From: Ilex aquifolium | Taxonomy: Eukaryota > Streptophyta > Magnoliopsida > Aquifoliales > Aquifoliaceae | Assembly: GCA_951799425.1 (NCBI GenBank) | Contig: OX637398.1 | Location: forward strand, 21,772,270 to 21,836,269 | Direction of reading: 5' to 3' | Length of the DNA stretch: 64,000 nt | Shown here: positions 1 through 27,509 of the stretch, piece by piece | How positions within the stretch are numbered: position 1 is the stretch's first letter | Layout of the letters: the number at the start of each line of letters is the position of its first letter | Position numbers and translations under genes: made by a program | The notes under the pieces: model-generated | Database searches by the model: none | Told to the model about the DNA's origin: nothing | What the model saw: the letters and a program-made list of their open reading frames with translations, nothing else

Positions 1-589
1 AACGCGATTGAGCAGAATGAGAGTACTAAGCGTGCCAAAGAGCTCGGCCTGAGCTTCCAGATTCTTTGGAACAGGGTTTGGGAAGGGGATCAATTCACAT
101 AGGGAAACTATAGTAGTTTACCTGCTCGGGAGCTCGGCTAATCCACTCTTCAATGAAGTCTCTTGCTCCTAGAGAGTATACTGATAAAAAAAGGGGGTGA
201 TTACACAATATGCTGGTAAAATTCAGATATTTTCTCCAGTTGAGGGCTTTGCCTAATACTTACAGTTAATTCTGAGCCTAGCCAGATCTTTAGGCTAGAA
301 CTTTGCTCCTTTCTCGTAACGGCCGCTTGAATTGTGCAACGGCTACGGGTATGTTGGGGCGGTTGCGAATTTGGTGCCTGGACAAGCGTCTGTTGCCACT
401 GAGGGGGTGCTTGGTGGTTGCCAGCTGTCCTCCACTTCGTCTCCTCTGAGGTGTGGATTGAGGGAGCTCGAGGTCAGGGATAAGGGCCTCAATGGTATTG
501 GTCTTCCGACCTTCAGGTCTGGGCTCCCAACCTGCGAGGCTGAACTGGACAAATCGAGCTCAGCCTTTGGTATTTCCTAGGTATCATCA
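1..589 (-). repeat. 3' LTR of element A (cut by window start)
   Basis: Positions 1-589 match 25867-26444 at about 92 percent by eye, with a few small length differences. Read on the minus strand it begins TGATGATACCTAGGAAATAC. It is the 3' copy because a purine tract, not a primer site, adjoins it at 590. About 13 bp of its far end lie before the window. Confidence 0.95.
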
Positions 590-607
590 GTTGCCCCCCA
601 GTCCCTG
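590..607 (-). other. Polypurine tract of element A
   Basis: On the minus strand this reads AGGGACTGGGGGGCAAC and ends directly against the LTR start TGATGATACC. This is the expected place for plus-strand priming in reverse transcription. Elements B, C and D have similar G-rich tracts at the same place. Confidence 0.8.
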
Positions 608-785
608 CTCAAACAGGTTTATTTGAGCTAGGATTGAGCTATGGGTGGGGTGAGCGAGGTTGCCTGGGGTCGACCTTTATTTGCGCATGATGGGACATCA
701 TTCTGATGGTTATGACGGACGTGCAATAATTCTTTTCTCGTTTCTCGCGCACGTCCCTTATTTCGAGGGTCCACGTATGCTTGTC

Positions 786-792
786 TTTAAAT
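786..792 (+). promoter_or_regulatory. TATA-like box of the first opposite-strand gene in element A
   Basis: TTTAAAT lies about 500 bp before the start ATG at 1291. Elements B and C have a TATA-like box at almost the same distance from their matching genes (37965-37975 and 17805-17814), and the flanking bases are similar, for example TGCTATTGTAGAC here and TGTTATTGCAGAC in B. The shared position suggests these genes have their own promoter rather than using the LTR. Function is inferred. Confidence 0.5.
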
Positions 793-1290
793 GCTATTGT
801 AGACAAAAAAAATTGTCTTTCATTTTCTCGAATTATCTTCACATTCTGTCTTTAGGCTTTACTTTTTCTCTTTTTCCCTTGCAATTTCATCTTCTTAAAT
901 TTGTTGGAGATCTAGGGCTTCGTTGGTGATCCCCAAATTTAATTTGAAGATTCTGCGAGGCTAGCTTAGTTCGTTCCTCGGATTTGTCCTGGGTTTTTGG
1001 TTGTCGCTCGTTTACGACTAGGTACGCACTTTGCCCTGTTCTTCTTTTCTTCTTTTCATTCTGGATCCCTCGAATTCGAGGTGATTTTTTAATTTTTGGA
1101 CTTTTCGCTTCTGTTATTTTAAAAATCGAGGTCGTTCCTTGTCCTTCCTTCCTCTCTTATTGGATCCTTATTCTACTGTTAGGATCTTTCTCTTCGGTCG
1201 ATGGTGTCTTGACCCTTCGGCCCTCAGGGACTGTTTTGCTAACGTTCCTTTCCCTTGTACCTCTTTCCATCTCCCTTTCTCCAACCCTAC

Positions 1291-3797
1291 CATGTCTGCC
1301 TCTTCTGAAGCTACCGCTTCATCTGTCTCTCTTGCCATGGGCGAGAGGTCTCCTGAACTAGAGGAGGATGACCTAGGCGATGTGGGGGATGAGATAGACA
1401 AATTTCCTGGTGTTGATTCTATTGATGCTGGGAAGAGGTCGAGGTCCTTATTCCATCACCTTCCCCTGTACTGAGGTCTACGAAATCTCAGAAAGGGAAA
1501 TCTAAGGTGAGCAAAGTTGGGATTTCTGGCAGTGCTGGAGAGACAGAGGTCGCCCCCAAAGCTTTAGACCTCATTGGTTTTAGTGAAGTCACCCCTCCTT
1601 TCATGAGCGTCCTTTCAGCTTGGTTTGGTTGTCCCCCGGGGTATGCAGTATTGGTGTCCACACGTGGACATTCGATATGAATCCCAGGTTCCAAAGAAAG
1701 TTAGCTTCTTCGTGGCTTCTTTCGAAAACGACCTTTGTTTCCCTATGCATCATTTTCTTAAAAGTGTCCTTCAACACTTCAACGTCTGACCCGCTCAACT
1801 TTCTCCCAATTTTTAGGGTGTTCTAGTGGGTCTTCTCGTTTTCTTCAAGAAAAACAAACGTGGTGTCCCCACCGTACCCTTGCTCATGAAGTTCTTCAAT
1901 ATTAAGGTCACCCCCTTTGACGGTTTCCTGTACATTGCTAAGCGGGTGAAGACTTGAGTTTTTATTACTGAGCTCCCACAAGGGTTGGAAGAAGCTTTTC
2001 TTCTTCGTGTCTGGGAAAGAATGGGAGTATAACCCCAGAGATGCAGCTGATACATTCCCTATACCTCGAGCTTGGTCTGCCCCTGATAATCTGGGTAAGT
2101 CTTGCCTGAGTAGGCTTGATCCAGCCTTAGTGTTTCTTTCTATTGACTTTGTTCGGCTTACTTCTTTCAGGTATTTGACCCGACCTTAGTGCTGAGGACA
2201 AGATATTTTGCTGGGCTTGGAGAGTTGTGAGCCAGAGAAATACTCCAAGCTTCTTAAGCCTAAGCTGCTTACTAAATTCGGGTTTAGTTCCCCCGAGGTG
2301 AGGGTAGAGACCCCTATTCCTATTTTCGTTGTTGGCGCAAAAGAGGTTGCTGGTAAGGCTTATGTCTTTTTATCCCTAACTCTTATTTTACTTCTTTCTG
2401 TTCTCACTGAGCTATTTGTTTTGGCTTTGCAGGTTCTAGCTTAATGGCTCCAGACACGGACGCTGTGAAGACTAAGATCGCCCTTATGAAGAAAGACAGA
2501 TGCGAGGGAAGACGCAAGGCAGAGGTCGGGTTTGGAAGTGACTCGACTCCTCTTTCGAAGGTGCAGAGGACAAAAGTGCCCCCTCCTCCTCCTTCCCAGA
2601 CGGTCCTTACGCCTCCACCGATTTTACAGAAGACCCCCCGACCTCAACTTCTCAAGGGACCTCCCCCTTTTTCCTCGTAAGGGCTCTTGGACAGGCTGGG
2701 GCCTCATCTTCTCTCTCGTTGGCAGAGGTTGCAGGGGTTTTGGAGTCCATTGCTTCTTGCCTGCGAGAGCCTCCTCCCTCCCGTCCTATTGAGAAGACTC
2801 ATCGTCTGCACGTAGAGGGTCTATCAGCAAAAATCGAGAAAGGCAGGAGCTCACTTATCAGGGACGTGGGGCTTGCTGCTGAGGTCATTGCCTCGGTTAT
2901 CCCTGAATCAAACATTCAGGAGGCCGTTGCTCTTCCTCTCTCTGCTGCTGCCACTACCGCCTTGTACGGTGTAACTTTGATAAGTTTTGATTTCACAAAG
3001 TCTTATTTCCGCTTTGTGCTATTGCCTTGTATTGACCTTGACTTTTCTTGTGTTTTTTCCAGTTGGCCATTCATGTAAGCGCTCTAGTGAGTCGGGTCCG
3101 GGTTCTAGGAAGCACAGCTGAGGAGGCTCAGAGGGCTTTGAAGGCATCTGAGCTCAAGGTTTCCGAGCTGAGCTTTTCTAATGATGATCTCAAAGCTTAG
3201 GTTGAGGGGCTGGGCTCTATCAACAAAGGCCTGGAGACTGAAGCTAGAAAAGCCAAGGATGAGCTCAAACTGAAGGCAAACAGTTTGTTCCAAGCTCACA
3301 AGGATGCCTTCGAGGCCCTTGAGTCCTTCAAGATAATGAAGAAAAAGTATAACATATTGGCTGAGGTCGACGCTACTCTACTGAAGGAGATTGAGGCTGA
3401 GAGGGCTGCAGCTCGGAAGAAGGATGCTGCGATCACTGAGCTCAAGGACGAGGCTGCCACCAACTGGGCTACTAGGTACCTTGCTTTTCAAGATCAAGCT
3501 ATGGAGAGGTATCTAGACCTGGAATTTGAATTCAACCTCCCTTTGGATAAGGAGAAGGTGAAGCCAAGTGCTAAGAAGGAGGTAAAGGTCTCGACTCCTA
3601 TTGCTTCCGAGGTGGAAGGTAATGGGGTCGAAGTTCCTGAGGCTCAAGTTTCTGAGCTCACCTTTGATGGTGCCGAGGTGTCTGTTCCCCTAGCCGAGGT
3701 CCCTGCTTCTGAGACTCCCTTTGACTTTACTCCAGCGGCTGTTCCTGAGCTGCCCGAGCTGCCAGAAGCTACTGTTGAAGATGTTGTAAAGACCTAG
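1291..3797 (+). pseudogene. Opposite-strand accessory gene 1 of element A (gypsy-type-transposon motif plus coiled coil)
   Basis: The gene runs against the element. Its N-terminus, MSASSEATASSVSLAMGERS, matches the same gene in C (MSASSGATPSTVSLFGDRS) and B (MSTSFEVTASSVSLAMGNRS), which fixes the start. An acidic stretch with PGVDSID follows. Next come a conserved block containing KKVxFFVASFEN and a HPFLKxxLxHFN-like motif (about 1680-1800), a basic segment near MAPDTDAVKTKIALMKK (2444) and an Ala/Glu/Lys-rich coiled coil (about 3100-3500). The acidic tail ends EDVVKT. Intron-like gaps with GTAAG and CAG ends separate the coding blocks, as is known for antisense genes of Tat elements. The middle block resembles the family named 'putative gypsy type transposon' (Pfam Transposase_28). 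The role is unknown; binding of the element's own RNA or DNA is only a guess. Some breaks are present. Confidence 0.65.
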
Positions 3798-4393
3798 GAC
3801 TTTTTCTGTATTTCTTTTTGTACCTTGTAGCAATCTTTATACCTAACCCTTCTGAGGAATGAAAAAATTATTTTGGTCCAGTATTCTTGTATCTTTGTAT
3901 ATTCTTATGTTTTTGTATTTTTCTCTGTATTATGTCTTTTCCCCCCTACTCCAAACAGGTCTTGGCTTATTTGGAGTATGGTGCCTGTTTTTTGCTATTC
4001 CTATGCCTCCCTTGCTTGATTTGCACCATTCTTCGCTGTATTGTTTCGAGCTGCCTGTACTTAAGCTCCATTTTTTTGTGTAAGCTCTGCTCGGCTATTC
4101 TGTTCCTTTAGTGTCGTACATTTTTTGGACCGACATGTACGGATCCGGGTGAAAAGCAATGAATGGACTTTTATTTGTGCCCACCTACCTTCACCTTCCT
4201 TTTTAAGGCACCGCTTTCCTTAGCTGTTGCCATGATTATGGAAGTGTAACGGTTGCCTCTTTGCTTTCGCATGCCTTTTGCTTCCTGAAAACTTGGGATT
4301 TATTCCTTCTTACGTAAAACTTGAGATTTCTTACTTTCTACATTCCCAATTCCCTTTAGAACTTTCCTTGCATTCTGCTTTCTTTTTGGCTTC

Positions 4394-5560
4394 ATGGCTT
4401 CCTCTCCCACTCAATTGTTCAAACATTGAGCCTAGGCTATGATTGATGTGCCATGGTATTCGGTCTTTCTGCTCCCCTCTATGGTTACGGCTTCGGAGGT
4501 GGAGGAAGTTAAGAGGCGATACCTTCTGCTTGACGCCTTGGTCATTCGAGTTCCAACACGCGATGAGCCTTACAACCTTCTCATTCGACGGGAAGTTTGC
4601 TTCTTCAAAGGCGCTTTCGAGATGGGTCTTCGTTTACCCATCCATCCCGCCGTTAGAAGGGTTCTGGCCTTCTATGGGTTGTGCCCCTCTCGTCTTTCTC
4701 CAGAAGGATGGGGTGCTCTGATAAGCTTTTTTATTTTTTGCTGTCTGCAAGGCAACATTGATTTTTCCACTGTTGTCGAGTTCCTTTACTTTTATGATCT
4801 TCCTTTTGACATGCCCCCTGCTTTAGTCGCTTCACATGGAGGCGCCACTTTGACTCTCTGCTGGTCCTCGATGCCCTTAGCTCTCCAGAGGGGTGGACTC
4901 AACATTTTTTTCTATATTTTTGGGGACTCCTGGGAGTCTGTTGAGGCGCTGTTTGTTGAGGCGTGGTCTGAGCGTGCCCGGATCCCTCGCTCTTAGGGGC
5001 GTTTCTCTGATAGAGGTAAATGATTAGGATTTTTTACTCCCATCCGTTGTTTGCAAATATTATGATGAGTCCTAATTGTGCTTGTGTTGTGCAGGTGCTC
5101 CTAGTCTGACGCCTGACGAGTTGGTGAGGGTCAGTCGAGTGGCTTGTGTTGAAGCGGTTCCTTTGTCGTCGTTAGTTACTTCCTAGAACCTTCTCTGGTT
5201 AGGGACCGGAGCTAGCTCTGCTGCCGTTCTGGATGCTATCTCACACCCTTTTCCTCCTATTATTGATGTAGACTCCTCTCCCACTGAATCGGATGAGGAT
5301 GTTGTTACTTCCTCATGGAAGCGCAGAAGGGGCAGCTCATCACCACAATCGTTAGGTTCTTCCTCTAGTGAGATTAGGTTTACAACTGCTGAGCTGGAGC
5401 TTGCATTACGGAATGCGAGCCTCAAAAAGCAGCTCTCTGAGGTGGAGAAGGAATGGGATGAGCTGAAGGCTGAGAATGCTCGTCTGCGGGCTATGAACGT
5501 GCAGTTGGAGGAGGAGATATTTGAGCTAAAGTGGGGACTTGGGGCGGCTTATAACTTTTT
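4394..5560 (+). pseudogene. Opposite-strand accessory gene 2 of element A
   Basis: The start is at MASSPTQLFKH, matching MAPSPTSLFKQ in B and MAAPVSPLFKE in C. The first exon holds the motif REVCFFKGAFEMGLRLPIHP, followed by VLAFYGLCPSRLSPEGW, which is the core of the 'putative gypsy type transposon' family. After an intron-like gap (acceptor near 5095) the second part has a Ser/Asp-rich linker and a nuclear-signal-like basic patch (SSWKRRRGS, about 5310). It ends in a leucine-rich coiled coil (KAENARLRAMNVQLEEEI, about 5460-5530). It lies downstream of gene 1 on the same strand, about 600 bp away. The motif shared with gene 1 suggests the two are paralogues. One or two breaks are seen compared with C. 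The function is not known. Confidence 0.65.
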
Positions 5561-5820
5561 CTCTTCTTCTTTCTGTAACCCTGCCATACTTATGAATTTA
5601 AAACCATTTTTTTTCTATTGGATGCCTTGCTTATTATTTTACTTTGATAGTTGCAATGCTTAGGCTGAAAAGCCCAGTTGATGTAGCGAGCTGAATCAGT
5701 CTCGGTTTTCTAGGAGAACTTTGTTTTTCTGGAAGTGAGTCTGAATTTTGCAAGGTATGAGGCCTGTTACCAATATGAGGAACGTGACTGTTTGTCAGGA
5801 GCTTTTTTGCTTATGATCTA

Positions 5821-6271
5821 GAGAGCTCATCTCTTATTTATGAACTGAGGAGCTCATCTTTTGTTTATGAGCTGAAGAGCTCATCGTTTGTTCATGAGCC
5901 GAAGAACTCATCATTTGTTCATGTGCTGAAGAACTCATCATTTGTTTATGAGCTGAGGAGCTCATCTTTTGTTCATGAGCTGAAAAACTCATCTCTTATT
6001 TATGAGCTGAAGAGTTCATCATTTGTTTATGAGGTGAGGGACTCATCTTTTGTTCATGAGTTGAAGAGCTCATCGTTCGTTTAGGAGCTGAATAGCTCAT
6101 CTTTTGTTTATGAGCTGAGGAGCTCATCTTTTGTTCAAGAGCTGAAAAACTCATCTCTTATTTATGAGCTGAAGTGCTCATCGTTCGTTTATGAGTCGAA
6201 TAGCTCATCTTTTATGTATGAGCTAAAGAACTCATCGTTTGTTTATGAACTAAAGAGCTCATCTTTTGCTT
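5821..6271. repeat. 27-bp tandem repeat array, element A 3' region
   Basis: From 5840 to 6271 there are exactly sixteen 27-bp units (432 bp), preceded by a partial unit. The consensus core is ATGAGCTGAAGAGCTCAT followed by a T-rich spacer. The core is an inverted repeat with 7-bp arms ATGAGCT and AGCTCAT around a 4-bp loop, so each unit can fold as a small hairpin. The array lies just past the integrase end of A and just past the end of opposite-strand gene 2, that is, where the two opposing genes meet. B and C carry the same unit at the same place. Tandem arrays in the 3' region of Tat elements are known. Confidence 0.95.
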
Positions 6272-6445
6272 GAAGCTGATAATGGGATGTCGATTGAGCT
6301 TAAGCTTGTTGTTTCATTGATGATGCACTTTTACAAGTGTTTACTGAAAAAATTTCTTCAGATGGTGAGCATTCCAGGAGTGAGACAAGATTTTCCCTTC
6401 CTCTGTTTGGAGCTCGTAATTCCCAGGCCTAATTATCTTTGTTAT

Positions 6446-7032
6446 TGATGGTACCAAAAATTAATCCTAAGTATGAGCTCATCCCAGGGGATCAGATCGG
6501 GAGGTCAGTTCGGAGCTCTAAAGCTCAGAGGGCCAGAACCTGAGCTCCCTCATGCGAAATTATAGCCGAAATGATAAGGAAGTAGCTGGATGATAGCTGG
6601 CACCCCCGAAGCAATAGCCAAGCAACATCCTGGGCGTAAAACTCTTAATTGACCAAGATCCCTTCCTAGAATTAAGGGGAATTCCATGGATGAAGGGCAA
6701 AGATCTCAGTAGAGATCTCTTAGAGGTAGGAAAGGTATTATAAATACTGTACATTGCCCCAACCAAAGGGGAGAGAGGAACCTTAGCAACTTCAAGAGAG
6801 CAATCTGTAACACCCATTGGATGAATACACATCTCAGGAGCAAGAGCCTCCATTGCAGAGTGGACTAGCAGAGCTCATCAGCCGGTGAACCACTATATTT
6901 CCACTGTGTTACACACACCACACCTCTGATAACCAGAACATTTACCTACCAATTCATGAGCCTTGTAGCTCAGATCTATTCTTAACTATTAACATCAAAC
7001 TCACTGCTTATTTGCGTGAAATAACACCATCA
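6446..7032 (+). repeat. 5' LTR of element C
   Basis: Starts TGATGGTACCAAAAATTAA and ends AATAACACCATCA. It is the same length as the right copy (587 bp), with about 18 substitutions between them, mostly C/T and G/A changes. A TATA-like stretch (TATTATAAATA) sits near 6738. Confidence 0.96.
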
Positions 7033-7176
7033 GTTATGATGAATGGGCCTTCCTAGTTGGGTCCTAGCTTTCCATGAGTGGGATCCTTTCCTGCGGAGAG
7101 GAGTTTTTTGAGGACCAGATCTCCGACTTTGAAACTTATGTGCCTTACCCTCTCGTTGTAATATCTGGCTGTCTTT
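7033..7176 (-). repeat. 144-bp copy of flanking element A DNA inside the left LTR of C
   Basis: 7033-7176 equals 18574-18717 except for one base. The right copy is the proper flank of C: the GTTAT target site followed by the integrase C-terminal region of A on the minus strand. The left copy begins with the same GTTAT directly after the end of the left LTR, then joins the gag region of C. Such a join is expected if an allele with a solo LTR at this site recombined with the full-length allele; an assembly error is the other option. The two copies are more alike (0.7 percent) than the LTRs (3.1 percent). Confidence 0.9.
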
Positions 7177-10100
7177 GAAACTTCTGTCCCCAAAGAGAAG
7201 AGGAAATGTTAGAGACCGCTTAGGCCCTCCGCAACCTAAGCTACAGCCTAGGTATGCACCCTGGCAATTTACCCCGCTCACTGCCGCTGTATCCCAGGTC
7301 CTATATGAGGTCCAGAATGAAAAGTTCATGAGGTGGCCACCTCAGATGAATGCAGACCCAACAAAGAGAGACCCCACAAAATATTGTGACTACCACAGAG
7401 ACCATGGTCATCACACCGATGATTGCATTCAACTAAAGAAAGAGATCGAGTTTCTAATCCAACGGGGGTAGTTTCGTCGCTTTGTGGCCCATGATAATCA
7501 AAATCGAGCTCTTCCACCTCCGCCACCTCAACAACAGGCACCTGCACCACATCAACAACCCCTAGGGGAGATCAGAGTAATATCTGGGGGGTTTTTAGGA
7601 GGAGGAGAATCTAGCTCAGCCAGAAAAGTACACCTCCGAAGGATCAGAGCCGGAGAAGCTCTCGAAGTGCACACTGTGTCCAAAACACCGCGCCTAGACA
7701 CAACTATCACTTTTTCATATTCAGACTTAGAAGGATGTCAATATCCCCACGATGATCCCCTGGTGGTAAGAGCTGTGGTAGCCAACAAAACCATTCATCG
7801 AGTCCTGATTGACAACGGCAGTTCGGCAGACATCATTTTTGCGTCTGCATTCGATAAGATGGACATAGGGAGGGAAAAACTCGAGCCTGTGAGTGCCCAC
7901 CTGCTGGGTTTCTCAGGAGAAAGGGTGTTACCCTTAGGGTCAATTCAGCTTGTGCTCACCCTGGGTGACCTGCCTTGCCAAACCACTACAACCGTAAAGT
8001 TCCTAGTGGTTGACGCACCTTCTGCGTACAATATTCTGCTTGGAAGACCTTCCCTCAATTCTATGAGGGCCATTCCATCTGCCTACCACCTGGTTGTCAA
8101 ATTTCAAACAGAGAATGGAGTCGGAGTGGTCCGAGGAGACCAGTGTATAGCAAGGGAGTGCTACATGGCATCTGTGAAGAGGAAAGAGGTTGAGAACATC
8201 CAACTGGATGAACTTGACATGAGGGTTGAGCTGGAAACTAGACCAATCCCATCGGAAGAACTGGAGCCTATACAACTCGACGAAGAGCTAGAACATCTCG
8301 TTTACGTAGGGTCCAAGCTGAGCAGAGAGATTAAAGACCTCCTCATCCAATTTCTGAGGAAAAATATGGAAGTATTCGCCTGGAAACAAGAAGATATGGA
8401 AGGTATTAACTCCTCAGTCATCACACATAAGCTCAGTGTGAATCCTACCTGCAAGCCCACCAAACAAAAGAGGAGTTTCGCCCCAGAACGTCAGAAAGCC
8501 ATCAATGAAGAGGTCAACAAACTTCTCCATGCCAGAGCCATTAGGGAGATGGATTACCCAGTGTGGCTAGCCAATGTCGTCCTCGTTAAGAAGACCAACG
8601 ACAAGTGGCGCCTCTGCATTGACTTTACTGAACTTAATCGGGCTTGCCCTAAGGACAGCTTCCCCTTACCTCGGATAGATCTGATTGTGGATGCTACCGC
8701 TAGACATGAGCTCCTCAGCTTCATGGACGTCTTCTCTGGGTATAATCAGATTAGGATGGATCTTACCGACCAGGAGAAAACCTCCTTCATAACCGAGCAA
8801 AGGACATACTGTTACCAGGTTATGCCCTTCGGATTAAAGAATGCTGGAGCCACTTATCAACGCCCGGTGAATAAAATATTCCAAAAGCAGATTGGGACGA
8901 CCATGGAGGTCTACATTGATGATATGTTGGTCAAATCACTGAAAGCAGAGCTCCACATCAAGCACTTGACAGAATTTTTTCAGGTCCTGAAGGAATACAA
9001 AATGAAGCTCAATCCCGCCAAGTATGCCTTTGGGGTTTCCGTTGGGAAATTTCTGGGTTTCATAGTTAATAGCGGAGGGATAGAGGCTAACCCAGAAAAA
9101 GTAAAGGCAATTCTGGATATGCAACCGCCATCCAACACAAGGGAGGTACAACGTCTGATAGGAAGAATAGCTGCCCTAAGTCGTTTTGTGTCCAGATCAA
9201 GTGATAAGTGTCAACCCTTCTTTCAAGTCCTAAATAGGGCCTTCCTATGAGACGCCCAGTGTGAGGAAGCGTTCAAGGCGTTGAAAGGTTACCTGAGCTC
9301 CCCACCCATTTTGGTAAGCCCGTTGGAAGGCGAGGTCCTTACTCTATACTTAGCCGTCTTAGATTTCTCAACAAGTGCAGCGTTAGTAAGGGAGCAGGAA
9401 AGAGCTCAGCAACCAGTTTATTACTGTAGCAGAGCTCTGAGGGGGGCAGATGAGAGATATCCAAATATGGAGAAGCTTGTTTTAGCCTTAGTTACGACTG
9501 CCAGGAGGCATAGGCCATATTTCCAAGCTCATACTATCGAGATCCCTACAGATCAGCCGATGAAACAAGTATTACGTAAACCAGAGACTTCGGGTAGGCT
9601 GGTTAAATGGGCCATCGAGCTCAGTGAGTTCGATATTAGGTACAAGCCAAGAACAGCCATCAAAGGACAAATACTGGCAGATTTCATAGCAGAATTCACA
9701 ACAGGAACACCCATGGGGGCCATGCAGTTGGTACCTGACCTCCCCACATAGAAACTTTTAGTAGATGGAGCTGCCAACGCCTAAGGTAGCGGTGTTGGCT
9801 TAATTTTGACTTCACCTGACGAAATAGATGTTGAATATGCACTTAGATTTGGGTTTAAGGCCTCAAACAATGAGGCGGAGTATGAGGCTGTTATAGCAGG
9901 GCTCAATCTTGCTCACTCAATGGAGGCCGAACAGCTGGAGATCTGCAGTGACTCCCAGCTCGTGGTAAAACAGATAGAGGGGTCTTATGAGGCCAAGGGC
10001 AAGAAAATGATCCTTTACCTCAGAAAGGTACAAGGGCTGGTCAGGAAGTTTGTGCAAGTCAAGATTATACATGTCCCTAGATCAGAAAATTCTCGAGCAG

Positions 10101-11464
10101 ATGCGCTAGCGAGACTAGCAACTGCTTCACAGGAGAGCTTGGGTAGGTTGATACCAGTAGAGCATTTGGCGGAGCCATCAGTAAGAGTTGAAAAGGAAGA
10201 AGTGTTCCCAGTTCTTTCCCCACCAACTTGGATGGACTCCATTAGGGAATATCTTCAGAACGGAGCCTTGCTAGCAGACCTTAAGGAGGCCGCAAAGATA
10301 AGGGTAAGGTCAGCCAGATTCTCTATTTTGCAGGGAAACTTATATAAGCGAGGATTCTCGATGCCTCTCCTCAAATGTGTAGGAGATGAGGATGCTAATT
10401 ACATACTTAGGGAGATACATGAAGGAATTTGTGGCAATCATATCGGAGCTCGAGCCCTGGCAGGAAAAGTCTTGAGGCAGAGATATTATTGGCCCACTAT
10501 GCTAAAGGATGCCACCGATCTGGTTAAAAGGTGTAAGATGTGTCAGATACATGCCAACATCTCTCATTGTCCACCAGAGCTCCTAACATCGGTGGTAAGC
10601 CCTTGGCCCTTCCAACAATGGGGATTGGACATTCTTGGCCCTCTTCCCACCAGCGTAGGGTAGTGTAAATTCGCCATCATTGGGGTGGACTATTTCACTA
10701 AATAGACAGAGGTGGAACCTCTGGCAACAATCACAGAGCAGAAGATTCAGAATTTCACATGGAAGTCTATAGTCTGTAGATTTGGGGTACCTAGAGCAAT
10801 TGTTTCTGACAATGGTAAGCAGTTTGACAACCCCAAGTTCAGAAAGTTCTGTACAGAACTAGGGATAAATAATTATTTCTCGGCCCCAACCCATCCTCAG
10901 TCGAATGGACAAGCAGAAGTGACAATCAGAACAATTAAAGCAGCCTTGAAGACCAAGCTTGAGTCTTTGAAGGGAAAATGGGTAGAATATATTCCAGAGG
11001 TGTTGTGGGCATACAGAACAACCCCCAGGACTGCAACTCAAGAGACTCTATTCGCTTTGGCTTTCGGAACCGAAGCAGTATCACCTGTGGAGATAGGATT
11101 CCTATCCCCTAGAACTGAGTTATCAGAGTCTAAGCACAACGATGAATCCCTTCTGCTAAACCTTGATCTCCTGGATGAAAAGAGAGGAAGAGCTCTGCAA
11201 CACATTCAGAGTTATCAGAGAAAGACCGCAAGGTACTATGACAGGAAGGTCAGGCACAGAAGCTTCAAGGTAGGAGATCTGGTGCTTAGGAGGCTTTTGC
11301 TTGCAAGAAGGGATCCCACGCATGGGAAATTAGGGCCAAATTGGAAAGGCCCCTACATCGTTTCAAGAATAATTAGGCCCGGGAACTATGAGTTACAAAT
11401 AGAAGAAGGAAAGGTCCTACCATATTCTTGGAATGCCGAGCATCTTAAGAAGTTCTTTCAGTAA
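7177..11464 (+). pseudogene. gag-pol region of element C
   Basis: A Tat-type polyprotein region. The gag end has the zinc-knuckle pattern YCDYHRDHGHHTDDC (near 7385). The aspartic protease shows VLIDNGSSADIIF (near 7805) and YNILLGRPSLN (near 8025). RT spans about 8.45-9.2 kb with CIDFTELNRACPKDSFPLP, FMDVFSGYNQI, MPFGLKNAGATYQ and the catalytic YIDDM (near 8915). The RNase H that follows RT spans about 9.28-9.7 kb (CSRALRGADERYP). A second, archaeal-type RNase H spans about 9.8-10.13 kb (NNEAEYEAVIAGL, SDSQLVVKQI). Integrase spans about 10.3-11.46 kb, with HEGICGNHIGARAL, CKMCQIHA, VSDNGKQFDNPKF and the C-terminal motif GKLGPNWKGPYIV. It is the best preserved pol in the window, with about five breaks. 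Confidence 0.92.
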
Positions 11465-11554
11465 TTTTTCCTGTAATGAGATTATTCTCAATAAAAATAA
11501 ACAAATTCATGATTCATCCTTGCATGGCTTCCCAAAAGTAGCTAAAAAGCAAAC

Positions 11555-12010
11555 GATGAGCTCTTCAGCTCAAAAAGCGAGAAATGAGCTCTACAGCTCA
11601 AGATGAGCTCTTTGGCTCATAAAATATAGGATGAGCTCTTCAGCTCATAAAATATAAGATGAGCTCTTCAGCTCATAAAGTATAAGATAAGCTCTTCAGC
11701 TTATAAAACAAAAAAGAGCTCTATAGCTCAAGATGAGCTCCTCAGCTCATAAGCAAAAGATAAGCTCTTCAGCTTATAAAGCAAAAAAGAGCTCTATAGC
11801 TCAAGATGAGCTCCTCAGCTCATAAACAAAAGATAAGCTCTTCAGCTTATAAAACAAAAAAGAGCTCTATAGCTCAAGATAGGCTCCTCAGCTCATAAGC
11901 AAAAGATAAGCTCTTCAGCTTATAAAACAAAAAAGAGCTCTATAGCTCAAGATGAGCTCCTCAGCTCATAAACAAACGATGAGCTCTTTAGCTCACAAAA
12001 CCTAAAGAGC
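11555..12010. repeat. Hairpin tandem repeat array of element C with a 73-bp higher-order unit
   Basis: The 27-bp unit seen in A and B recurs here, for example GATGAGCTCTTCAGCTCATA. A higher-order unit of 73 bp starts at 11686, 11759, 11832 and 11905. Each 73-bp unit holds three inverted-repeat cores: ATAAGCT-CTTC-AGCTTAT, GAGCT-CTAT-AGCTC and ATGAGCT-CCTC-AGCTCAT. The array lies 90 bp past the integrase end and about 150 bp past the end of opposite-strand gene 2. Confidence 0.95.
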
Positions 12011-12158
12011 TCCAACCCACGGGTACGCAAAAATTGGAACCTTGTCAAAACCAGAATTCATAGTCACAAACATTCAAAAGGAAAAAAAAAAGGATGCAAA
12101 AGTTACAAAAAGGTCTGGCAGTTCATTGAACAAAAAGAAGTACAAGAAAGAGGAACTC

Positions 12159-13230
12159 CTAGTCCTTTTTAAGTTGCTGCTTCAGCTCAGCAACCTCTCC
12201 CTTTAGGCGGGTGTTCTCCTCTTTCAGCTCGCCCCTTTCTTTTTCCTTTTCAGAAAGAAATTTGAGAAGCTTCTCGCCTGCTGAGGTAAACAAAACAGTG
12301 GCAAGAGAAGAATTAGGTGAAGGAGAACCATCCCTCCTGCGCTTCTTTGAGGACACACCTGCATCCCCTTCCTCGTCAGAATCAGAGGGAGAAGTCCAAG
12401 GAGAATTTGGAATGGAAGAAAACTCCCAAGTAGTTGCCTCAGCGCTAAGCAAATAAAGGTTTTCAGGCGTCATCAGATCTGAAAAAGGCTTGGGGTCTAC
12501 AAGTAGTAGTTGATCAATATTCATCATCTCCAGCAAATCCAGGTCAGGGGGACCTGCATAATGAAAACATAATAAGAATGGATTTTCATAGGATTCAGTC
12601 GAGATAGATCTGCCTGAACATACGTATATGAGAGAAGCTCCCCCAGGAGCGTGGAATTCTAGTCCTAGGGCAGCACTGCTCGGTAGATCTCCAAGACTTC
12701 CCGGAGGCAAAAAATAAGCGTTGGGACCACCCTTCAGGAAGTGGAGGAAGGTCAAGAACCAAAGTGGGTAAGTTGAAGTGCCTCCAACGAAAGAAGCTGA
12801 AGCAGGGGAGCTCATCTTCTTCGATCTCAAAGAAATAAAGAAACTCAGCAACAGTAGGGAATCCACCGTTGCCATATAGACGCCAGAAGAGGAAAAAGCT
12901 GACCATAGTAGCCCAACCTCGGGGCGAGAGGCGAGAAGGACACAAGCCATAGTACGCAAGGACTCGCCCAATGGAAGGATGAATGGGAAGGCGAAGGCCC
13001 ATCTCCATGGCACCCTCGAAAAAGCAAACTTCCCCTCGAGGAAGGTAGTTATAAGGCTCGTCAAAAGTCGGAACTCGTAGGGACAAATCAAGCTCAGGGA
13101 AGAATCATTTTTTGATGTCTTCCAAGTCTGAAGGCTTCATCGTTGAAGGGGTTAAGTAGCGAGAATGCCACTTCCAGTCAATTCCAAAGGAAATGCGTTC
13201 TTTGAACAGGGGAGATACAGGGGCAGCCAT
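12159..13230 (-). pseudogene. Opposite-strand accessory gene 2 of element C
   Basis: The start ATG (13230) begins MAAPVSPLFKE, matching gene 2 of A and B. The motif GEVCFFEGAMEMGLRLPIHP and VLAYYGLCPSRLSPRGW follows at about 12.94-13.05 kb. An intron-like gap ends in an acceptor near 12556. The second part has FSSIPNSPWTSPSDSDEEGD, a basic patch SSKKRRRDGS (possible nuclear signal) and a C-terminal coiled coil (LKEENTRLKGEVAELKQQL). The last exon is well kept. It ends about 150 bp from the repeat array and converges with pol. The role is unknown. Confidence 0.65.
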
Positions 13231-14491
13231 CAAGACTACAATGAGGATAGAAGGTAATCTCTAAGATTCAAGAAAAAAACTCTGAAATCTTTCGGCAATG
13301 GAGGAAGAAATCCAGGAGGTATTGAAAGCTTTAAAGAAAATCATGAGTTTTTAAGAAACCAAGAACCACACAGAAAACAGAGTCGGCGATCCTTTTGGTT
13401 TTCTAATTAATGATGGCAGTTATGGTTTTGGAAAGCAGTTGAGTAAATACAGAAAAAGATGAATCAGCACAGGGTGACCCCCCAATGCGATCAAAGTAAT
13501 GGGGAACCAGTATGAGCTCGACCCAACCTGAACGAAACTTACCTCAGATTTCTTTGGGTTGAGGTCAACCCGAATGGCTACCTAGCCTTTCCAGCACATC
13601 TTTTCGAGACCATCAATCCCAAAGAACCACATTCATATCCTGGATAAAATGGACTGGTATTTCTCAGGCTCCTCTGTCATCAAAGTTCTCATGCATGTAG
13701 CAATATGACCTCAGCAGATCTACCTTTGGAAGAACTCAAGCATCAAGTTGCTTACTCTCTTTTCCAAATCCAGCAAACCTCTCGTCACCGTGAGGAGTGC
13801 TAAGTCCGCTACCCAATGCTCCCTGGAGGGAACCAAAAGTGTGACTACCAGTGTCACATAAGATTCACATCCTAAGAAGCTCTGAAAGGCCTCCTGCTTT
13901 CAAAGGGCGAGATAGAGAAACCCTCCCCAATGGCCTCAACATTCCCCTGATATTCCTCAACCATGTCCAAAACTTAGCAAGCTAAAAGAAGCCCAGCACA
14001 ATAAACTGCAGCATAAGTTGTGGAGGCTAGCTTCAAGTTCTCAAGAAGTAAAACCTCACGGTCCCAAAAGCTCTATTAGCTCAGCAGTCCTTGGTGAAGC
14101 TGTTTGGCAAACTCAGCAGAATAGGAGATCTAAAGGTAACCTCGAAACAAAAAGGGAAGGGGAATCCAGAGCACAAAACCTCATCAGTTAAGTCTATGTT
14201 CTGGCTCTCCATTAGTCCCCATCCAAGTTTGATAAATCTTGCTCGAAAAGGAGGACTAAGGTACTCCTCCAAGCAAGGGGGGCAAGGGGAACCCAGGCAA
14301 AACAATGAAGGTAATAGTGACAATAACAGAGTAGACTGCATTGAAGAGCAGAGTAGACTGCATTGAAGGACAGAGTAGACTATAAAGAGTAGATTGTATT
14401 GAATAGCTCCAAAAACAAAAACAAAGTATGTTTAACATTTACATCAATAATTCAAAGTGTGTTCAACATTTACATCAATAACAACACAGAT
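13231..14491. other. Spacer between the two opposite-strand genes of element C
   Basis: About 1.26 kb with no convincing coding block. It should hold the gene 2 promoter and the 3' end of gene 1. The first part (13231-13450) is A-rich leader of gene 2. The rest looks like degraded C/T-rich coding-like sequence with no family I recognise. A short repeat with GAGTAGACT (14330-14390) is present. Confidence 0.5.
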
Positions 14492-17338
14492 CTACCTTAA
14501 GTTCTGGACTCCTAGGACCCTGAAGAGGCAGAGTGGGGGGGGGGGGGGGGGAAAGCCTGGTAGCTCAGCAGTAGGAGTGCTTGATGGATCAGCAAATGAA
14601 ATCTCTGGCGGGACGAAAGTTGAAGCCTCTCGCAAAGTAACAGTCGAAATCTCTGGAAGAGTCAATTGTGCAGAGACCTCGACTTCAGTTAAAGCCCTCG
14701 TTACTAGGTCAGCAGAAAAAGGGGCAGCAGCAGGAAGGTCAGTAGGCATAGGAGTCAGAGAAGCCTCAGGATTGCCCACGGTTGTAGTGGATACAGAGGT
14801 GGGAATATTCTGAGCCTGGACCTCAGCCAGTGAGGTAGGCACCTCAGAACCCGCAGGAGCAGCCTCAGAGGCAAGAGAGGCCAAGGCACCATCCTCACCT
14901 GCTGAACTAGGCACCTCTGCCTCCTTTTTAGCTAGAACCTCTACCTCCCCCTCAGCCGGAATCTCAAAGTTGAAGTCCAGATCAGGGTATGTTTCTTCGG
15001 CTATGTCCTGAAAAACGATCCACCCTTTAGCCCACTGGGTAATAAAATCATCCTTCAGCTTCGCTATCAGGTCATCCTTCTCTTTAACAGCTGCTCTCTG
15101 AACCTCAAGCTCAACTAGTGTGGCATCGTGCGCCTCTGCTAATACACTGTATTCTCTTTTCATGCTGTTATAAGAGGCCAAGGCCTCAAATTTTTCCTGG
15201 CTAGCTCTGACCCAAGCCTCGGTCTTAAGTTTGAGCTCCTCCGAGACCTTTCTGAGCTCATCTCTGCTCCTTTTCTCTTCCGCTTCAGCCTTCTCTTTCT
15301 CCACCTCCAGGCTCTTGATGGTAGAATCCTGCTTTTCCGCGTGCTCTTGAAGACTCTAGAGTAGAGCTTGGAGGTCATCATTAGCAAAGGTTAGCTCTGC
15401 GGCTTTAAGTTCAAACGCCTTGGATGCCTTGGCAGAGCTCTCCAGAGAGCGAATTCGACTCAGCAAACCCCTCACATGTATAGCCAGCTGGGGAGAGATA
15501 CGATCAGAAACAAAGAATAACGTAAAACGACAAGCATAAGGTGGAAGCTTAAGTAGAACAATAACAGATACTTACAGCTGTGGTTCCATAAATGGCTGAG
15601 TTATTGGAGCTCTCAAGAGGCATCGTGGCAGCCCTCAGAACATCAGAATCAGGAATGATGGAAGTAATGGCACCAGCTGCAAGATCAACGTTATCGAAGA
15701 AAGAGTCTTCGTTCCCATCTGCTTTAGGGAACTTCCCTTTCTCCAACTTGGAGCTCGGTTGAGATGACTAGGAGATTTTCTCAGATGGTCCAAGAGGAGG
15801 AGAGACAAACTGGAGCTGATGAATCAACCCCAAGGCCCTCTCAACCTCAGATGATGAAGGTGAGGTCTGGTCTTGCACATGAGCTCTACCAGGAGCTTGC
15901 AGAACCCCTTTGAAAGAAGGGATCTCTGTGACTTGTGGGGAGCTCAATGGGGGGAGCAAGAGCTCCAGAAGTTGAAGCAGGAGAGCTCGATGGTTTAACA
16001 AGGGCTCCTGTAGTTGAGACAGGGGAGCTGGGGGGCACTCCCGATTTCTACATTTTAGCTCGGGTAACAGGGCTGCTACCGGAACCGACCTCCGCCTTGC
16101 GTTTGCTCCCACTCCTGCCCTTCTTCAGCTGAGCTACCTTAGCCTGGAGTTCTTCGGGGGTAGGCTCCATCGAGGAAGAACCTAAAGAGTCAAAATGGGC
16201 AAGTTAAGAGGAAATAAGGGGGAAATAAAAATTTGAGGAGAACAGGGAGAGGAGAACCACTACCTGCCACTTCAGCCGTAACAACTGAAAGAGGAATAGG
16301 AGCTTCGATAGAAAGAGGAGTAGGGGATTCTATTATCACCCCTGGGGGTCTGAACCCTTGCTCTACAAAAATCCAAGGTTTGATGAGTTCAGAGTATTTT
16401 GCTGTAGCGCACTTCTCTAACCTCAGCAACACCCGTTCGTCCTCTGCAGTGAGCTCAGGGCGTTCACCTAGGAAATAATATAAACAAAGCAGAGTCAGAG
16501 AGAGCCACCAAACCCGATCACAGTTAGTTTTGGGCAAGGACTTACCTAGGTTTTCGGGGACTGACCAGGCTCTAGGGATTGTAAGAGTATCTATTTTATT
16601 TGCAGAGTTGTACTCCCATTGTGAGCCCCCTATGTAAAAGAATTGTTTTTTCCAGTACTTGTGGGAGCTCGGGAGGTCAAAAATAATTACTCTGGCCTTT
16701 GTTCGTTTGGAGATATATAAAAAGCCCTCGGAAGCAGTATGCTTGACGTTGAAAAAATACATGAGTAAGGAAATAGTGGGAACCCCAAGCTTGTGGATCT
16801 TAAAGAAAACGAGGAGACCCACGAGGACCCCCTAGAAATTAGGAGAGAGCTGAGCAGGACAGATATTGAAATGCTGAAGGACACCCTTTATAAAAGGGTG
16901 TAAAGGAAAGCGCATACCATTCTCAAAGGCAGCCACGAAGAAACAAACCTTCTTATGAACCTGGGAGACGTATGGGGTGAATTTGTCTGGACTCCAGCAT
17001 TGAACCCCTGGGGGGAAACCATAACGAGCACTAAGAACCTTCATGAGAGAAGGAGTGACCTCACTAGGGCCCACGAGCTCTACATTTCTGAAAGCAGACC
17101 CTATGCCTGGAGCCGAGATACCTACACCACTCACCTTGCTCTTGCCTTTGTCGGGGTTTTTGACCACAGGGGAGGAAGTCGAGGGAGGCTCATCAGTGTG
17201 TGCCTGAGCATCGACAGAATCGACGCCTGGGAAATTGTCAATCTCCTCACCCACAGCTTCTAAGTTAGAATCCTCTTCAATAGATCGATCTCCGAAGAGG
17301 GAAACAGTGGAAGGGGTAGCACCAGAGGAAGCAGACAT
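14492..17338 (-). pseudogene. Opposite-strand accessory gene 1 of element C
   Basis: Start at 17338, MSASSGATPSTVSLFGDRS, shared with A and B. The conserved block holds KKVCFFVAAFENGMRFPLHP and VLQHFNICPAQLSPNF (about 16.84-16.95 kb). A second block, GVPTISLLMYFFNVKH, RVIIFDLPSSHKYW and IPRAWSVPENLGKS (about 16.5-16.8 kb), follows an intron-like gap. Then comes a basic segment and a long coiled coil (about 14.98-15.3 kb, rich in Glu, Lys and Ala, with EAHDATLVELEVQRAA). The tail is acidic and Pro/Ala-rich. A run of about 18 G at 14532 lies near the end. Introns of about 70-100 bp are visible between blocks. Its order matches gene 1 in A and B. The biochemical role is unknown. Confidence 0.65.
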
Positions 17339-17804
17339 AGCTGGGCAGGTAAATGGAAGCTTAAAAGACCTATAGAGAGGAGGAATTTCAGAGAAACACT
17401 CATTGAAAACTCTAGGGTCGACACAACTATGCGCGATAATAAAGATTCTAGCGGTGGAATAGGGGTCCAAAAAGAGGGGAAGACGACACAAGGAAAGGCC
17501 TCGATTCCTAAAATAACAGAATCGGAAAGTCCAGAAATGAAGAAACCACCTCAGACTCAAGGGATCCAGAACAAAAAATAGCAGGTAGGGAGCCAAGAAC
17601 GTACCTAATCGAAGGCGAATAGCAAGCCAAAGTTCGAAGCGAGCAAGCCCCACACACCAATTTGAAGGGAGACGAGGTTCAGTAAAACCTTAAATTCGCC
17701 GGTAAATTGGGTCAGTCAGAATCTGCTAAGAAGAAGGAAGATGGAGAGCCTGATAGAAGAGAATTCGAGAGGAAGAAATGGGAGCCGTTACTGTCAATTC
17801 AAAG

Positions 17805-17814
17805 GCATTTAAAG
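17805..17814 (-). promoter_or_regulatory. TATA-like box of opposite-strand gene 1, element C
   Basis: On the minus strand it reads GCTTTAAATG, about 470 bp before the start at 17338. It matches the place of the TATA-like boxes in A (786-792) and B (37965-37975). No experiment is implied; the call rests on the conserved position in three elements. Confidence 0.5.
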
Positions 17815-17970
17815 CTGACTGTACAAAGTGGAGAACGTGCTCGGAAAACGTGGGAGTTTATGATTACCTATAACCGTCAAAAACCTGTTTGCACGCCGAC
17901 CGAGGTTGGCAAGTGGAGGTCAGCCTTAACTGAACCTCAGCTCAGCCCCTACCCAAGTTCACTTGGACTA

Positions 17971-17986
17971 AGGGCTGGGGGGCAAA
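17971..17986 (+). other. Polypurine tract of element C
   Basis: AGGGCTGGGGGGCAAA directly before the right LTR, as expected for the plus-strand primer of an LTR element. Confidence 0.8.
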
Positions 17987-18573
17987 TGATGGTACCAAAA
18001 ATTAATCCTAAGTATGAGCTCATCCCAGGGGATCAGACCGGGAGGTCAGTTCGGAGCTCCATAGCTCAGAGGGCCAGAACCTGAGCTCCCCCATGTGAAA
18101 TTATAGCCGAAATAATAAGGAAGTAGCTGGATGATAGCTGGCACCCCTGAAACAATAGCCAAGCAACATCCCGGGCGTAAAACTCTTAATTGACCAAGAT
18201 CCCCTCCTAGAATTAAGGGGAATCCCATGGATGAAGGGCAAAGATCTCGGTAGAGATCTCTTAGAGGTAGGAAAGATATTATAAATACTGTACATTGCCC
18301 CAACCAAAGGGGAGAGAGGAACCTTAGAAACTTCAAGAGAGCAATCTGTAACACCCATTGGATGAATACACATCTCAGGAGCAAGAGCCTCCGTTGCAGA
18401 GTGGACTAGCCGAGCTCATCAGCCGGTGAACCACTATATTTCCACTGTGTTACACACACCACACCTCTGATAACCAGAACATTTACCTACCAATTCATGA
18501 GCCTTGTAGCTCAGATATATTCTTAACTATTAACATCGAACTCACTGCTTATTTGCGTGAAATAACACCATCA
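17987..18573 (+). repeat. 3' LTR of element C
   Basis: 587 bp, the same length as the left copy. The GTTAT target duplication follows at 18574-18578. Confidence 0.96.
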
Positions 18574-21500
18574 GTTATAATGAATGGGCCTTCCTAGTTG
18601 GGTCCTAGCTTTCCATGAGTGGGATCCTTTCCTGCGGAGAGGAGTTTTTTGAGGACCAGATCTCCGACTTTGAAACTTATGTGCCTTACCCTCTCGTTGT
18701 AATATCTGGCTGTCTTTCTTTGATAACTCTTGATATGCTGCAAGGCCCTTTCCCTCTTTCCATCTAAGAGGTTGAGGTTGAGTAGAAGTGACTCGTCATT
18801 GTGCTCTGGTTCAGATAGCTTTGTTCTTAGAGATGGGATGCCGATCTCCACAGGAGCTACTGCCTCGATTCCGAATGCTAGGGCGAACGACGTTTCCTGA
18901 GTTGTCGATCTGGTTGTGGTCCTGTAAGCCCATAGCACTTCTAGAACGTGTTCCACCCATCTTCTTTTTAGGGCTTCAAGTTTAGTCTTTAGAGCCGCCT
19001 TTAAGGTTTGAATGGTTACTTCTGCTTGTCCATTCGATTGAGGGTGAGCGGAAGTAGAGAAATAGTTCTTTATGCCTAGCTCGACCTAGAAATTTTTGAA
19101 CTTGGGATTGTCGAACTGCTTCCCGTTGTCTGAGACGATTGCCCTAGGTATTCCAAACTTGCAGACTATGGATTTCCAAGTGAAGCTTTGAACCTTATGC
19201 TCTGTAATTGTCGCCAAGGGCTCCATCTCAACCCATTTGGTGAAGTAATCCACCCTAATAATTATGAACTTGCATTGCCCAGTGCTGGTTGGAAGAGGTC
19301 CAAGTATATCTAATCCCCACTGTTGGAATGGCCAGGGGCTAACCACCGAGGTGAGGGGCTCCGGTGGGTAGTGTGGGATGTTGGCGTGTAATTGGCAGGT
19401 CTTGCACCTTCTAACTAGCTCTGTTGTGTCTTTGAGCAGGGTGGGCTAGAAATATCCTTACCTCAGTGTTTTTCAGCCAGAGCTCGAGCTCCAATGTGAT
19501 TGCCGCAGATGCCTTCGTGAATTTTCCTTAGGATGTAGTTAGCCTCTTCGTCCCCTATACACTTCAGAAGAGGTGTGCTTGATTAAAACCGTTGTAGTAT
19601 ATTCCCTAATCTCCGCACATCACCCTCAAATGTGTATATGACTTATGTGTGAAGGGAATGTCACTCTCCCTCGGAATGATGTGGGAAATAGGGCAACGAA
19701 ATGGTGGTGGAAATGAAATGTATGAAATGGGAAACGTCCGTAATGAACAAAAGTGCTCCCCAAGCGCAAGGAGTCTTTTGAATGTCGTGTTTTACTTGGA
19801 AAAGTATTCCAAGGTCGTCTCCTCAGGGTAGGAAAGCTTAAGTGTGTGAAGGTGATTTTGGTGAACAAAAGAGAAAAGTGTAAAATCTTTTGTTTGTATT
19901 TTGGTGATTGAAGTTTGTGAATGAAAATGCAATGGAAAACAAATGTTGGCTAATCCAAAGAGGTCAATCCAATAGGAATACCAAATCAACTCAAGCCTTC
20001 CTCCAATAGAGCCTAGATGTACGATTGATTAGTGAGAAGCTCGGGACTAAAATGGAGGTGAGGATTCAAGCATACCCACTGATGATGCCTACGGTGTATC
20101 AAGAACTCACAACCATGTCCTCACCCCAACCCAGTCAAACCGAGCCATCGTACTCTGAGAGGAGGAATGGAAATGAGTTGAAGTGGCACACCCAAGAGGA
20201 GTTCTCCCTTGGATTAACCAACTTAAAATCTAGCTACTCATGAAAACAAGAAAGACATGCATAATGTAAAGGGACATAATGAAGAAATGGAACATGGAAC
20301 TTGGTTTAATGCAAGAAAATAGAAACTATGAAGAGAAATATGCAATACCCATTTTAATCTTAAAAATGAAGATAACTTGCTGCAACAATGGTGAAATCTA
20401 AAATGTAGCATTAAACTTGAAATGTACTTGAAGTAAATGACATTAAAGATAATAAATGAAGTTTACACAAGTCTTACAATAAACTACAAGAGAAAGGATG
20501 GAAGAAAATGCAAAAATCTAAGCTTTCTAACTACTATTGATCTTCTTCCTCCTTGGAGCTTTCTAAGTTTAGGTAGCCACCCCCCAAATGCTTGTTGAAA
20601 ATCTGAATATATGGTGAAGGGCCTTCCATTTTCGTCCATGAGGGTCCCTAGGGTCTGTGTGAAAGGCCTCCCATTAATAGGGGGCTGAATAGATGGGTTA
20701 GGCAGGCTAGCACAGGCTTAGCCTGCACACCCATCATCCTCTCTCTCTCTTCTCCCATGCCTTCTCTTCCAAAGTCAAGAAATTGTGTAAGGATGACATG
20801 GTTATGTGTAGAATATGTTAGGGTAGGTGTGGGAGAAGTGTAGGTGGGCCCCCCGAGAAGTTGGAGAAGACTTGCAGGCGTTCTGGGCATTTTGGGCTGT
20901 TTCAGAAGAGCGTACCGGTACGTCGAACTCCAGTAGGTAAATCGTACCGGTATGGCATACCAGTACGCTTCTGCTTCGGACTAGTTTTCGTAGAATTGTC
21001 ATAACTTTTGATCCAACTGTCCTCTTGAGCTGAAATTTTGACACAATATAGAAGATATCCAGATCTACAACTTTCATTTTTTAAACTTTTTCAGATTAAA
21101 AGTATATCATGGTCAAAATGGAGGAAAACCAAGGTACTGCCACCAAATGGTGCGGGTGCTGGTGCCTATGCTACCAAACACCGATACCTCCTTGATTTAT
21201 TTCACTTTTAAGCCTCCAAATCCTCAAGTAATGTGTCTATGCCTTCACCACACATCCACACTTAGTTGCAAGGTTCTAAAATCCATCATTTAAGCTATAA
21301 TTACCTGCAACCACAAGATTTCAACATTATTCACAACTTTGGCTAACTCTAAGTAATTAATTACAAAGTTGAGTTAAAATGCATGTAATGAGGCCATCAA
21401 ATATGCAATATTTTGTGTTCATCAAGGTGTCGAGAAGCCCCGTTTGTATAGGTTCCCTTGGAAGAGGGTAAATCTGGATGATCTGAGTCTTAATTTTGTG

Positions 21501-25772: not shown

Positions 25773-25833
25773 GTTGAGTGTAGAAAACATCACTTACTGA
25801 AGAAAATCAGTATATTTGTAACATAAACAATCT

Positions 25834-25851
25834 TTCCCACAGACGGCGCCA
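25834..25851 (-). other. Primer-binding site of element A
   Basis: On the minus strand TGGCGCCGTCTGTGGGAA follows the 5' LTR after three bases. The same core is present in B (27492-27509) and D (59479-59497). It is the usual primer site of this group of plant Ty3/gypsy elements; the tRNA species is not assigned here. Confidence 0.85.
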
Positions 25852-25853
25852 AT

Positions 25854-27489: not shown

Positions 27490-27491
27490 GT

Positions 27492-27509
27492 TAGCGCCGT
27501 CTGTGGGAA
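27492..27509 (+). other. Primer-binding site of element B
   Basis: TAGCGCCGTCTGTGGGAA lies two bases after the 5' LTR. It differs at one base from the site in A and D. Confidence 0.85.

Follow-up and report, generated by a model that had tools for sequence, protein, structure and literature searches.

In a stretch of 64,000 nucleotides of the Ilex aquifolium genome (assembly GCA_951799425.1, contig OX637398.1, positions 21,772,270 to 21,836,269 of the forward strand), which as a whole is called the window below, we examined four long terminal repeat (LTR) retrotransposons named A, B, C and D. Elements A, B and C carry two genes, gene 1 and gene 2, where D carries one. A preliminary description made from the letters of the window had proposed that the pair arose by duplication inside the element lineage and that both copies were kept. 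Homology, a tree with two clades, a splice donor of the same phase, purifying selection, and conserved order and strand now support the view that the gene was copied in the element lineage and that both copies were retained. In each element the genes are antisense to pol and occupy the region between it and the 3' LTR; in A, for example, pol is on the minus strand and both antisense genes are on the plus strand. Their positions in the window are as follows.

A gene 1, about 1292..3797, + strand: antisense to A pol, recognised by profile matches, splice signals and codon-position bias
A gene 1 exon 1, about 1292-2094, + strand: TRP28 domain broken into 1607-1786, 1817-1954 and 1950-2186
A gene 1 introns, about 2095-2170 and (the last) about 2980-3062, + strand: second exon begins at 2171, last exon ends at 3794
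A gene 2, 4436..5560, + strand: domain open reading frame (ORF) 4436-4993; tail with a basic cluster and heptads in 5187-5660; PF04195 at 40.1 bits
B gene 1, 14495..17689, - strand: domain pieces 16835-17689 and 16193-16831; later exons to 14495; PF04195 at 30.9 bits
B gene 2, 12162..13260, - strand: domain in ORF 12598-13104, its N-terminal part lying in a different frame (13108-13260); tail exon ends at 12162; PF04195 at 41.9 bits
C gene 1, 34957..37778, - strand: domain pieces 36976-37287 and 36619-36972; PF04195 at 15.0 bits, under the cut-off
C gene 2, broken, 33398..34498, - strand: pieces 34238-34498, 33974-34114 and 33398-33658; no PF04195 match in the two pieces scanned
D single antisense gene, 50406..52300, + strand: diverged TRP28-like domain, closer to gene 1

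Homology of the two genes and the age of their split

The domain common to both genes belongs to PF04195 (Transposase_28, TRP28), a profile of 69 positions with a curated cut-off of 26.2 bits. Gene 1 scores above this cut-off in B (30.9 bits) and at the loci L001 (50.4) and L075 (35.5), and gene 2 does so in A (40.1), B (41.9), L079 (40.4) and L075 (33.1), which places the two in one family and not in unrelated ones. Among the broken gene-1 copies, the pieces of A gave no match and C remained below the cut-off. Direct comparison with BLASTP joins gene 2 of A to gene 1 of B (37.7% over 77 amino acids, E 3e-15) and gene 2 of B both to gene 1 of B (45.7% over 46 amino acids, E 2e-10) and to block 2 of C gene 1 (28.9% over 97 amino acids, E 2e-9). 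Search profiles of five gene-1 and six gene-2 rows were run on all ORF pieces of 99 records, and 122 of the 161 pieces matched by either profile were recognised by both. When 27 gene-1 domain rows were aligned with 36 gene-2 rows by hhalign, 174 columns matched at 31% identity (P 6.8e-27), and the controls with reversed or column-shuffled gene 2 failed (P 0.18 and 0.075). The common domain of about 175 amino acids extends beyond the motif alone, and with the reciprocal profile matches it puts the paralogy of the two antisense genes of A, B and C on firmer ground than had been claimed. Searches beyond the family returned little: a 13-row profile had no match in the PDB at E up to 1, and neither IMG/VR nor prokaryote genomes, each scanned once with a single gene-2 protein, yielded any relatives.

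The motif by which the pair was first noticed had been described for both genes of all three elements. As homology this holds, but letter for letter it does not. The strict pattern VCFF..A.E.G.R.P.HP is found at three places in the window, in gene 2 of A (4595) and in gene 1 (16895) and gene 2 (12976) of B. Gene 1 of A (1703) and of C (37018) show only a relaxed pattern, and C gene 2 is broken at the motif. Likewise, the pair of motifs that had been quoted for an element C is present in the nested element named B here, not in C itself. Element D was rightly described as having a single diverged gene, as both the pattern search and hhalign confirmed. Since its two rows align with gene 1 at P 7e-9 and hardly with gene 2 (P 0.034), D appears to carry a distant copy nearer gene 1. 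Its homologue L074 gave no PF04195 match, and the kinship of the D type is read from the profile comparison with gene 1 only.

For the tree, 63 domain rows were used, with pieces covering less than 72% of the profile, identical copies and the D rows left out. One branch separates the 27 gene-1 rows from the 36 gene-2 rows with support of 100/100, and it is present in 100% of 200 bootstrap trees; there is no sign of convergence. Because rows like A, like B and like a further family, E (L079), are found on both sides, the split of gene 1 and gene 2 predates these families, and it is older than the divergence of the sampled families in this genome. In a quicker tree that included D (66 rows, one D locus twice), the stem of gene 2 had a length of 1.5 changes per column and that of gene 1 a length of 0.35, with a warning from the tool of long branches meeting. 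Gene 2 would have evolved faster if D is a fair outgroup.

A long branch of this kind could also have another origin. The second gene may have been gained from a different TRP28-bearing lineage through recombination or template switching, in which case the two genes would still be homologous. The branch between gene 1 and gene 2 is indeed far longer than the distances inside either gene, and a related element with a TRP28-like gene, D, coexists in the window. However, D matches gene 1 and not gene 2, which excludes elements of the D type as the source of gene 2, and no other donor was seen within this genome. We consider such a gain unlikely, although it is the most serious of the alternatives.

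Introns, constraint and pairing

GT-AG introns are placed after the domain in both genes, and this part of the earlier remark on intron-like gaps stands. The gap inside the gene-1 motif was also considered as an intron and rejected: B has one stop codon there in an otherwise continuous frame, and A and C shift frame. In both genes the splice donor follows a common PR[A/S]W at the same codon and in the same phase (phase 1), and such a common intron is an independent mark of shared descent. The gene-1 donors read GTAAGT, GTGAGT or GTAAGC after ..W..PDNLG-like residues, with GT in 19 of 19 matches (one cut off after GT), and the gene-2 donors read GTATGT, GTAAGC and similar, with GT in 31 of 32 (the exception, L021, has GA). 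Acceptors of AG followed by GT were found in 7 of 7 gene-1 and 22 of 22 gene-2 matches. These donor and acceptor counts include repeats of window loci (L069 is B, L071 is C and L009 is B), and L001-L008 in the donor counts include near-identical copies. The motifs of the donor search fixed the residue spacing, but a free hhalign alignment still puts both glycines in one column. A further gene-1 intron precedes the coil exon; in A its donor is AT for GT.

The codon positions at which copies differ follow these predicted exons. Between L001 and L002, substitutions at positions 1/2/3 number 32/19/92 in gene-1 exon 1, 35/27/62 in the exon that precedes the last intron and 12/13/29 in the coil exon, against 7/8/7 in that intron itself. 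Ahead of the presumed gene-1 start Met, a stretch of 267 bases (L001:838-1104) shows 6/6/26 in the frame of this Met, and the region upstream of it is also alike at the protein level in A, B and C. Because of this third-position bias, gene-1 coding probably starts further upstream, nearer the LTR. The older copies A and C show a weaker contrast, with 29/30/65 in exon 1 and 41/36/60 in the coil exon of gene 1, 18/27/31 in exon 1 of gene 2 and 33/29/34 in the spacer between the genes. The spacer bears on whether both genes belong to a single antisense transcription unit whose splicing or read-through yields one product with two domains. Such a unit would agree with their common strand, their distance of 3-4 kb and the introns in both, but each gene ends in a tail exon of its own ahead of the next gene and the spacer lacks codon bias; we regard a single unit as quite improbable.

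Both genes appear to be under purifying selection. Among unbroken copies, the median ratio of nonsynonymous to synonymous divergence (dN/dS) for gene 1 is 0.22 at a proportion of synonymous differences (pS) of 0.15-0.45 (14 pairs), 0.14 at 0.45-0.6 (46 pairs) and 0.12 at 0.6-0.74 (168 pairs). The corresponding medians for gene 2 are 0.22 at 0.15-0.3 (159 pairs), 0.21 at 0.3-0.6 (81 pairs) and 0.15 at 0.6-0.74 (188 pairs), values near saturation being rough in both genes. Saturated pairs (115 gene-1 and 149 gene-2) were left out, and the closest pairs give 0.39 in both genes (4 gene-1 and 52 gene-2 pairs). The medians of about 0.12-0.22 between diverged copies are biased downward because an open frame was required of the copies. 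In the window, where many pieces are saturated and without a value, B compared with A and C gives a dN/dS of 0.06-0.09 in the reverse transcriptase region, 0.11-0.14 in gene-1 block 2, 0.16-0.17 in the gene-2 domain, 0.31-0.37 in the gene-1 coil and 0.42 in one piece of gene-1 block 1; A compared with C gives 0.40-0.44. Antisense transcription of such regions has been reported, and control through double-stranded RNA has been discussed in the parts of that article considered here (PMC7264820), so it could be the antisense RNA that matters rather than a protein. The constraint at the amino acid level and the third-position bias in both genes argue against this, and we give it little credence. 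That the shared motif reflects chance or convergence of unrelated genes was rejected on the failed reversed and shuffled controls and can be set aside almost entirely, given that the two are collinearly similar over 174 columns, score above the cut-off of one Pfam family and have their intron donors in a single alignment column.

The pairing extends beyond the window. In the genome of 800 Mb, match lists of 150 each (four for gene 1, three for gene 2) merged into at least 507 gene-1 and at least 441 gene-2 places, and the counts that follow are among the matches listed. For 132 of the 441 gene-2 places the nearest gene 1 lies on the same strand no more than 12 kb upstream, at a median of 3859 bases, and for 5 it lies in another arrangement; about 7 gene-2 places in any arrangement would be expected by chance (507 x 24 kb / 800 Mb x 441). 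Where both genes are listed, gene 1 is nearest the 3' LTR and gene 2 lies about 3-4 kb further in on the same strand. In family E, 32 gene-1 domains are near-identical (97-100%); 30 of them are followed downstream by the gene-1 coil and 16 by gene 2, at up to 25 kb. Both genes have open exon-1 frames at L075 and in one element that comprises L001 and L079. A group of gene-2 copies 91-96% identical to that of family E comprises dozens of equally scoring copies, which suggests recent amplification.

The elements and their known relatives

The window contains the following elements and other features.

Element A, with B inserted in it, 1..26444, - strand: LTR pieces 1-589 and 25867-26444, 89.7% alike (self-BLAST)
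Element B, nested in A, 6446..18573, + strand: LTRs 6446-7032 and 17987-18573, target duplication GTTAT
Element C, of A's family, 26907..38747, + strand: LTRs 26907-27489 and 38166-38747, 91.8% alike
Element D, about 48.8-59.9 kb, pol on - strand: from self-comparison and window ORFs
B pol, 7484..11464, + strand: three ORFs with reverse transcriptase, RNase H, second RNase H-like (RVT_3) and integrase
27-base tandem repeats between gene 2 and pol, no strand: A 5724..6325, B about 11540-12048, C 33003-33162 (self-comparison)

Self-comparison places A and C in one family (78.9% over 5 kb) and B in a separate one. The two LTR subfamilies described before were found again, the LTRs of A and C being about 79% alike and neither matching the B LTR in self-BLAST (E 1e-10, pieces over 150 bases). 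Element B is flanked by GTTAT at 6441-6445 and 18574-18578, and its LTRs fall inside a terminal match of 731 bases (97.4%, self-comparison). Its 5' LTR is followed by a third GTTAT (7033-7037) and by about 144 bases resembling the integrase flank after its 3' LTR; the regions concerned are 6441-7186 and 17987-18730. The 5' end of B, with the primer site and much of gag, seems to have been replaced by LTR plus flank, as if through conversion or end joining from the 3' side. A repetitive stretch also lies downstream of gene 2 in family E (L079:3291-3980). Between C and D (39238-44328) there are direct repeats, 39519-40373 with 43457-44328 (79%) and 39238-39400 with 42254-42416 (85%). D is flanked on both sides by alike, short, coding-looking pieces (47230-48397 and 60447-60882), which we take to resemble fragments of a HEAT-repeat (importin-type) gene.

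From their sequences, the elements would be LTR retrotransposons of the Tat/Retand type. In B, Pfam finds RT_RNaseH in 9281-9751 and RVT_3, next to Integrase_H2C2, in 9806-10663, and we read the RVT_3 domain as a second RNase H. The order RNase H, second RNase H, integrase is given for Ogre and Retand in the passages of PMC6317226 considered, and a second RNase H in this position is a mark of Tat/Retand elements there and in PMC11963269. The antisense TRP28 gene between pol and the 3' LTR, also such a mark in these sources, is present in the window elements.

Antisense TRP28 (PF04195) genes are characteristic of Retand elements in the sections considered of PMC11963269 (Vicient 2025), and Transposase_28 occurs in 23% of Retand elements (PMC6317226, in part). 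Like the elements described here, those of PMC11963269 have a long region between pol and the 3' LTR, antisense TRP28 ORFs in 61 of 63 clusters and tandem repeats in many; the antisense ORFs (104) outnumber the 63 clusters. In contrast to the window, 57 TRP28 ORFs longer than 600 bp are spread over 56 clusters (our own count from text and Table 1), so that hardly any element has two, and the sections considered mention neither paralogy nor introns. The antisense pair may be confined to some lineages. In Silene Retand, ORF3 and ORF4 similarly provide more than one additional ORF at the same place (PMC7264820, PMC11728184; both in part, and compared by description only). These ORFs are named for Retand-2 in PMC11728184 and ORF4 has TRP28 (PMC7264820), from which it follows that more than one extra ORF was already known. 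The maize element Grande carries gene23, an accessory gene that lies antisense between pol and the 3' LTR and is reported to be transcribed from its own promoter; unlike here, one gene is described, and again the comparison is by description only (PMC7264820, in part). Ogre elements with plant mobile domain ORFs belong to the Tat clade by domain order and have extra ORFs, but their extra domain is PF10536 in the part of PMC6317226 considered; Pfam reported none in the proteins scanned here. The literature searched, whose scope did not take in Steinbauerova 2011, Kejnovsky 2006 and Gomez-Orte 2013, yielded no report of a retained paralogous antisense pair or of introns in such genes. Antisense PF04195 genes in Retand are known, and the retained, intron-sharing pair is apparently new within that literature.

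A possible role for two accessory proteins

The tails of the two proteins had both been described as coiled coil. This is clear for gene 2, whose tails combine a basic cluster with heptads and where 0, 6, 34, 11, 4 and 23 of 500 shuffles scored as high in six copies. DNA binding by TRP28 has been suggested by a published predictor (PMC11963269, in part), and the antisense product of Grande, gene23, is reported to be nuclear (PMC7264820, in part). We propose that one ancestral TRP28 gene was duplicated to give the two antisense accessory genes between pol and the 3' LTR. Their introns would outlast retrotransposition because the genes are antisense to the genomic RNA and would not be spliced out of it. 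After the duplication gene 2 may have changed faster and the products may have become specialised, presumably as nuclear accessory proteins that bind nucleic acid, perhaps as partners, judging from the basic cluster and coiled-coil tail that are clearest in gene 2. They could regulate the expression of the element, its silencing or its nuclear import. Two nuclear regulators of the element, perhaps partners, would be the likeliest reading.

Several observations weigh against this reading. In none of the window elements are both genes intact. Among the matches listed, 304 of the 441 gene-2 places are without gene 1, which is not equal to its absence, and a gene-1 domain or coil lies upstream of 16 of the 47 gene-2 places nearest family E and of 10 of the remaining 103, which form the group of 91-96% identity with its signs of recent amplification; some subfamilies or recently amplified gene-2 copies may thus lack gene 1 or have a strongly diverged one. 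Because some amplified gene-2 copies are listed without gene 1, a strict need for both genes is weakened. Exon 2 aligns in register with the acceptor but shows weak homology (P 0.02), and the tree of gene 1, gene 2 and D has no settled root. The coiled coil of gene 1 is mixed, with 45, 248, 23 and 225 of 500 shuffles as high in four copies, and a structure model from 8 window rows is poor (mean pLDDT, the predicted local distance difference test, 43.9). With these points included, we hold it fairly probable that Tat/Retand elements carry two antisense accessory genes from one TRP28 ancestor that are specialised nuclear regulators. We advance only tentatively, and with more doubt than belief, the stronger proposal of a two-protein antisense module, with an ancient duplication, two interacting nuclear proteins, both needed by autonomous elements, and intron-bearing genes kept only because they are antisense.

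These results bear on the role of the antisense TRP28 genes in an abundant group of plant retrotransposons. Because the genes bear introns, annotation by open reading frame alone splits or misses them. The sequences suggest that the element employs one accessory protein in two different versions. With a pair that is retained, diverged and selected, one copy may not do the whole job, and heteromers or a division of labour become testable.

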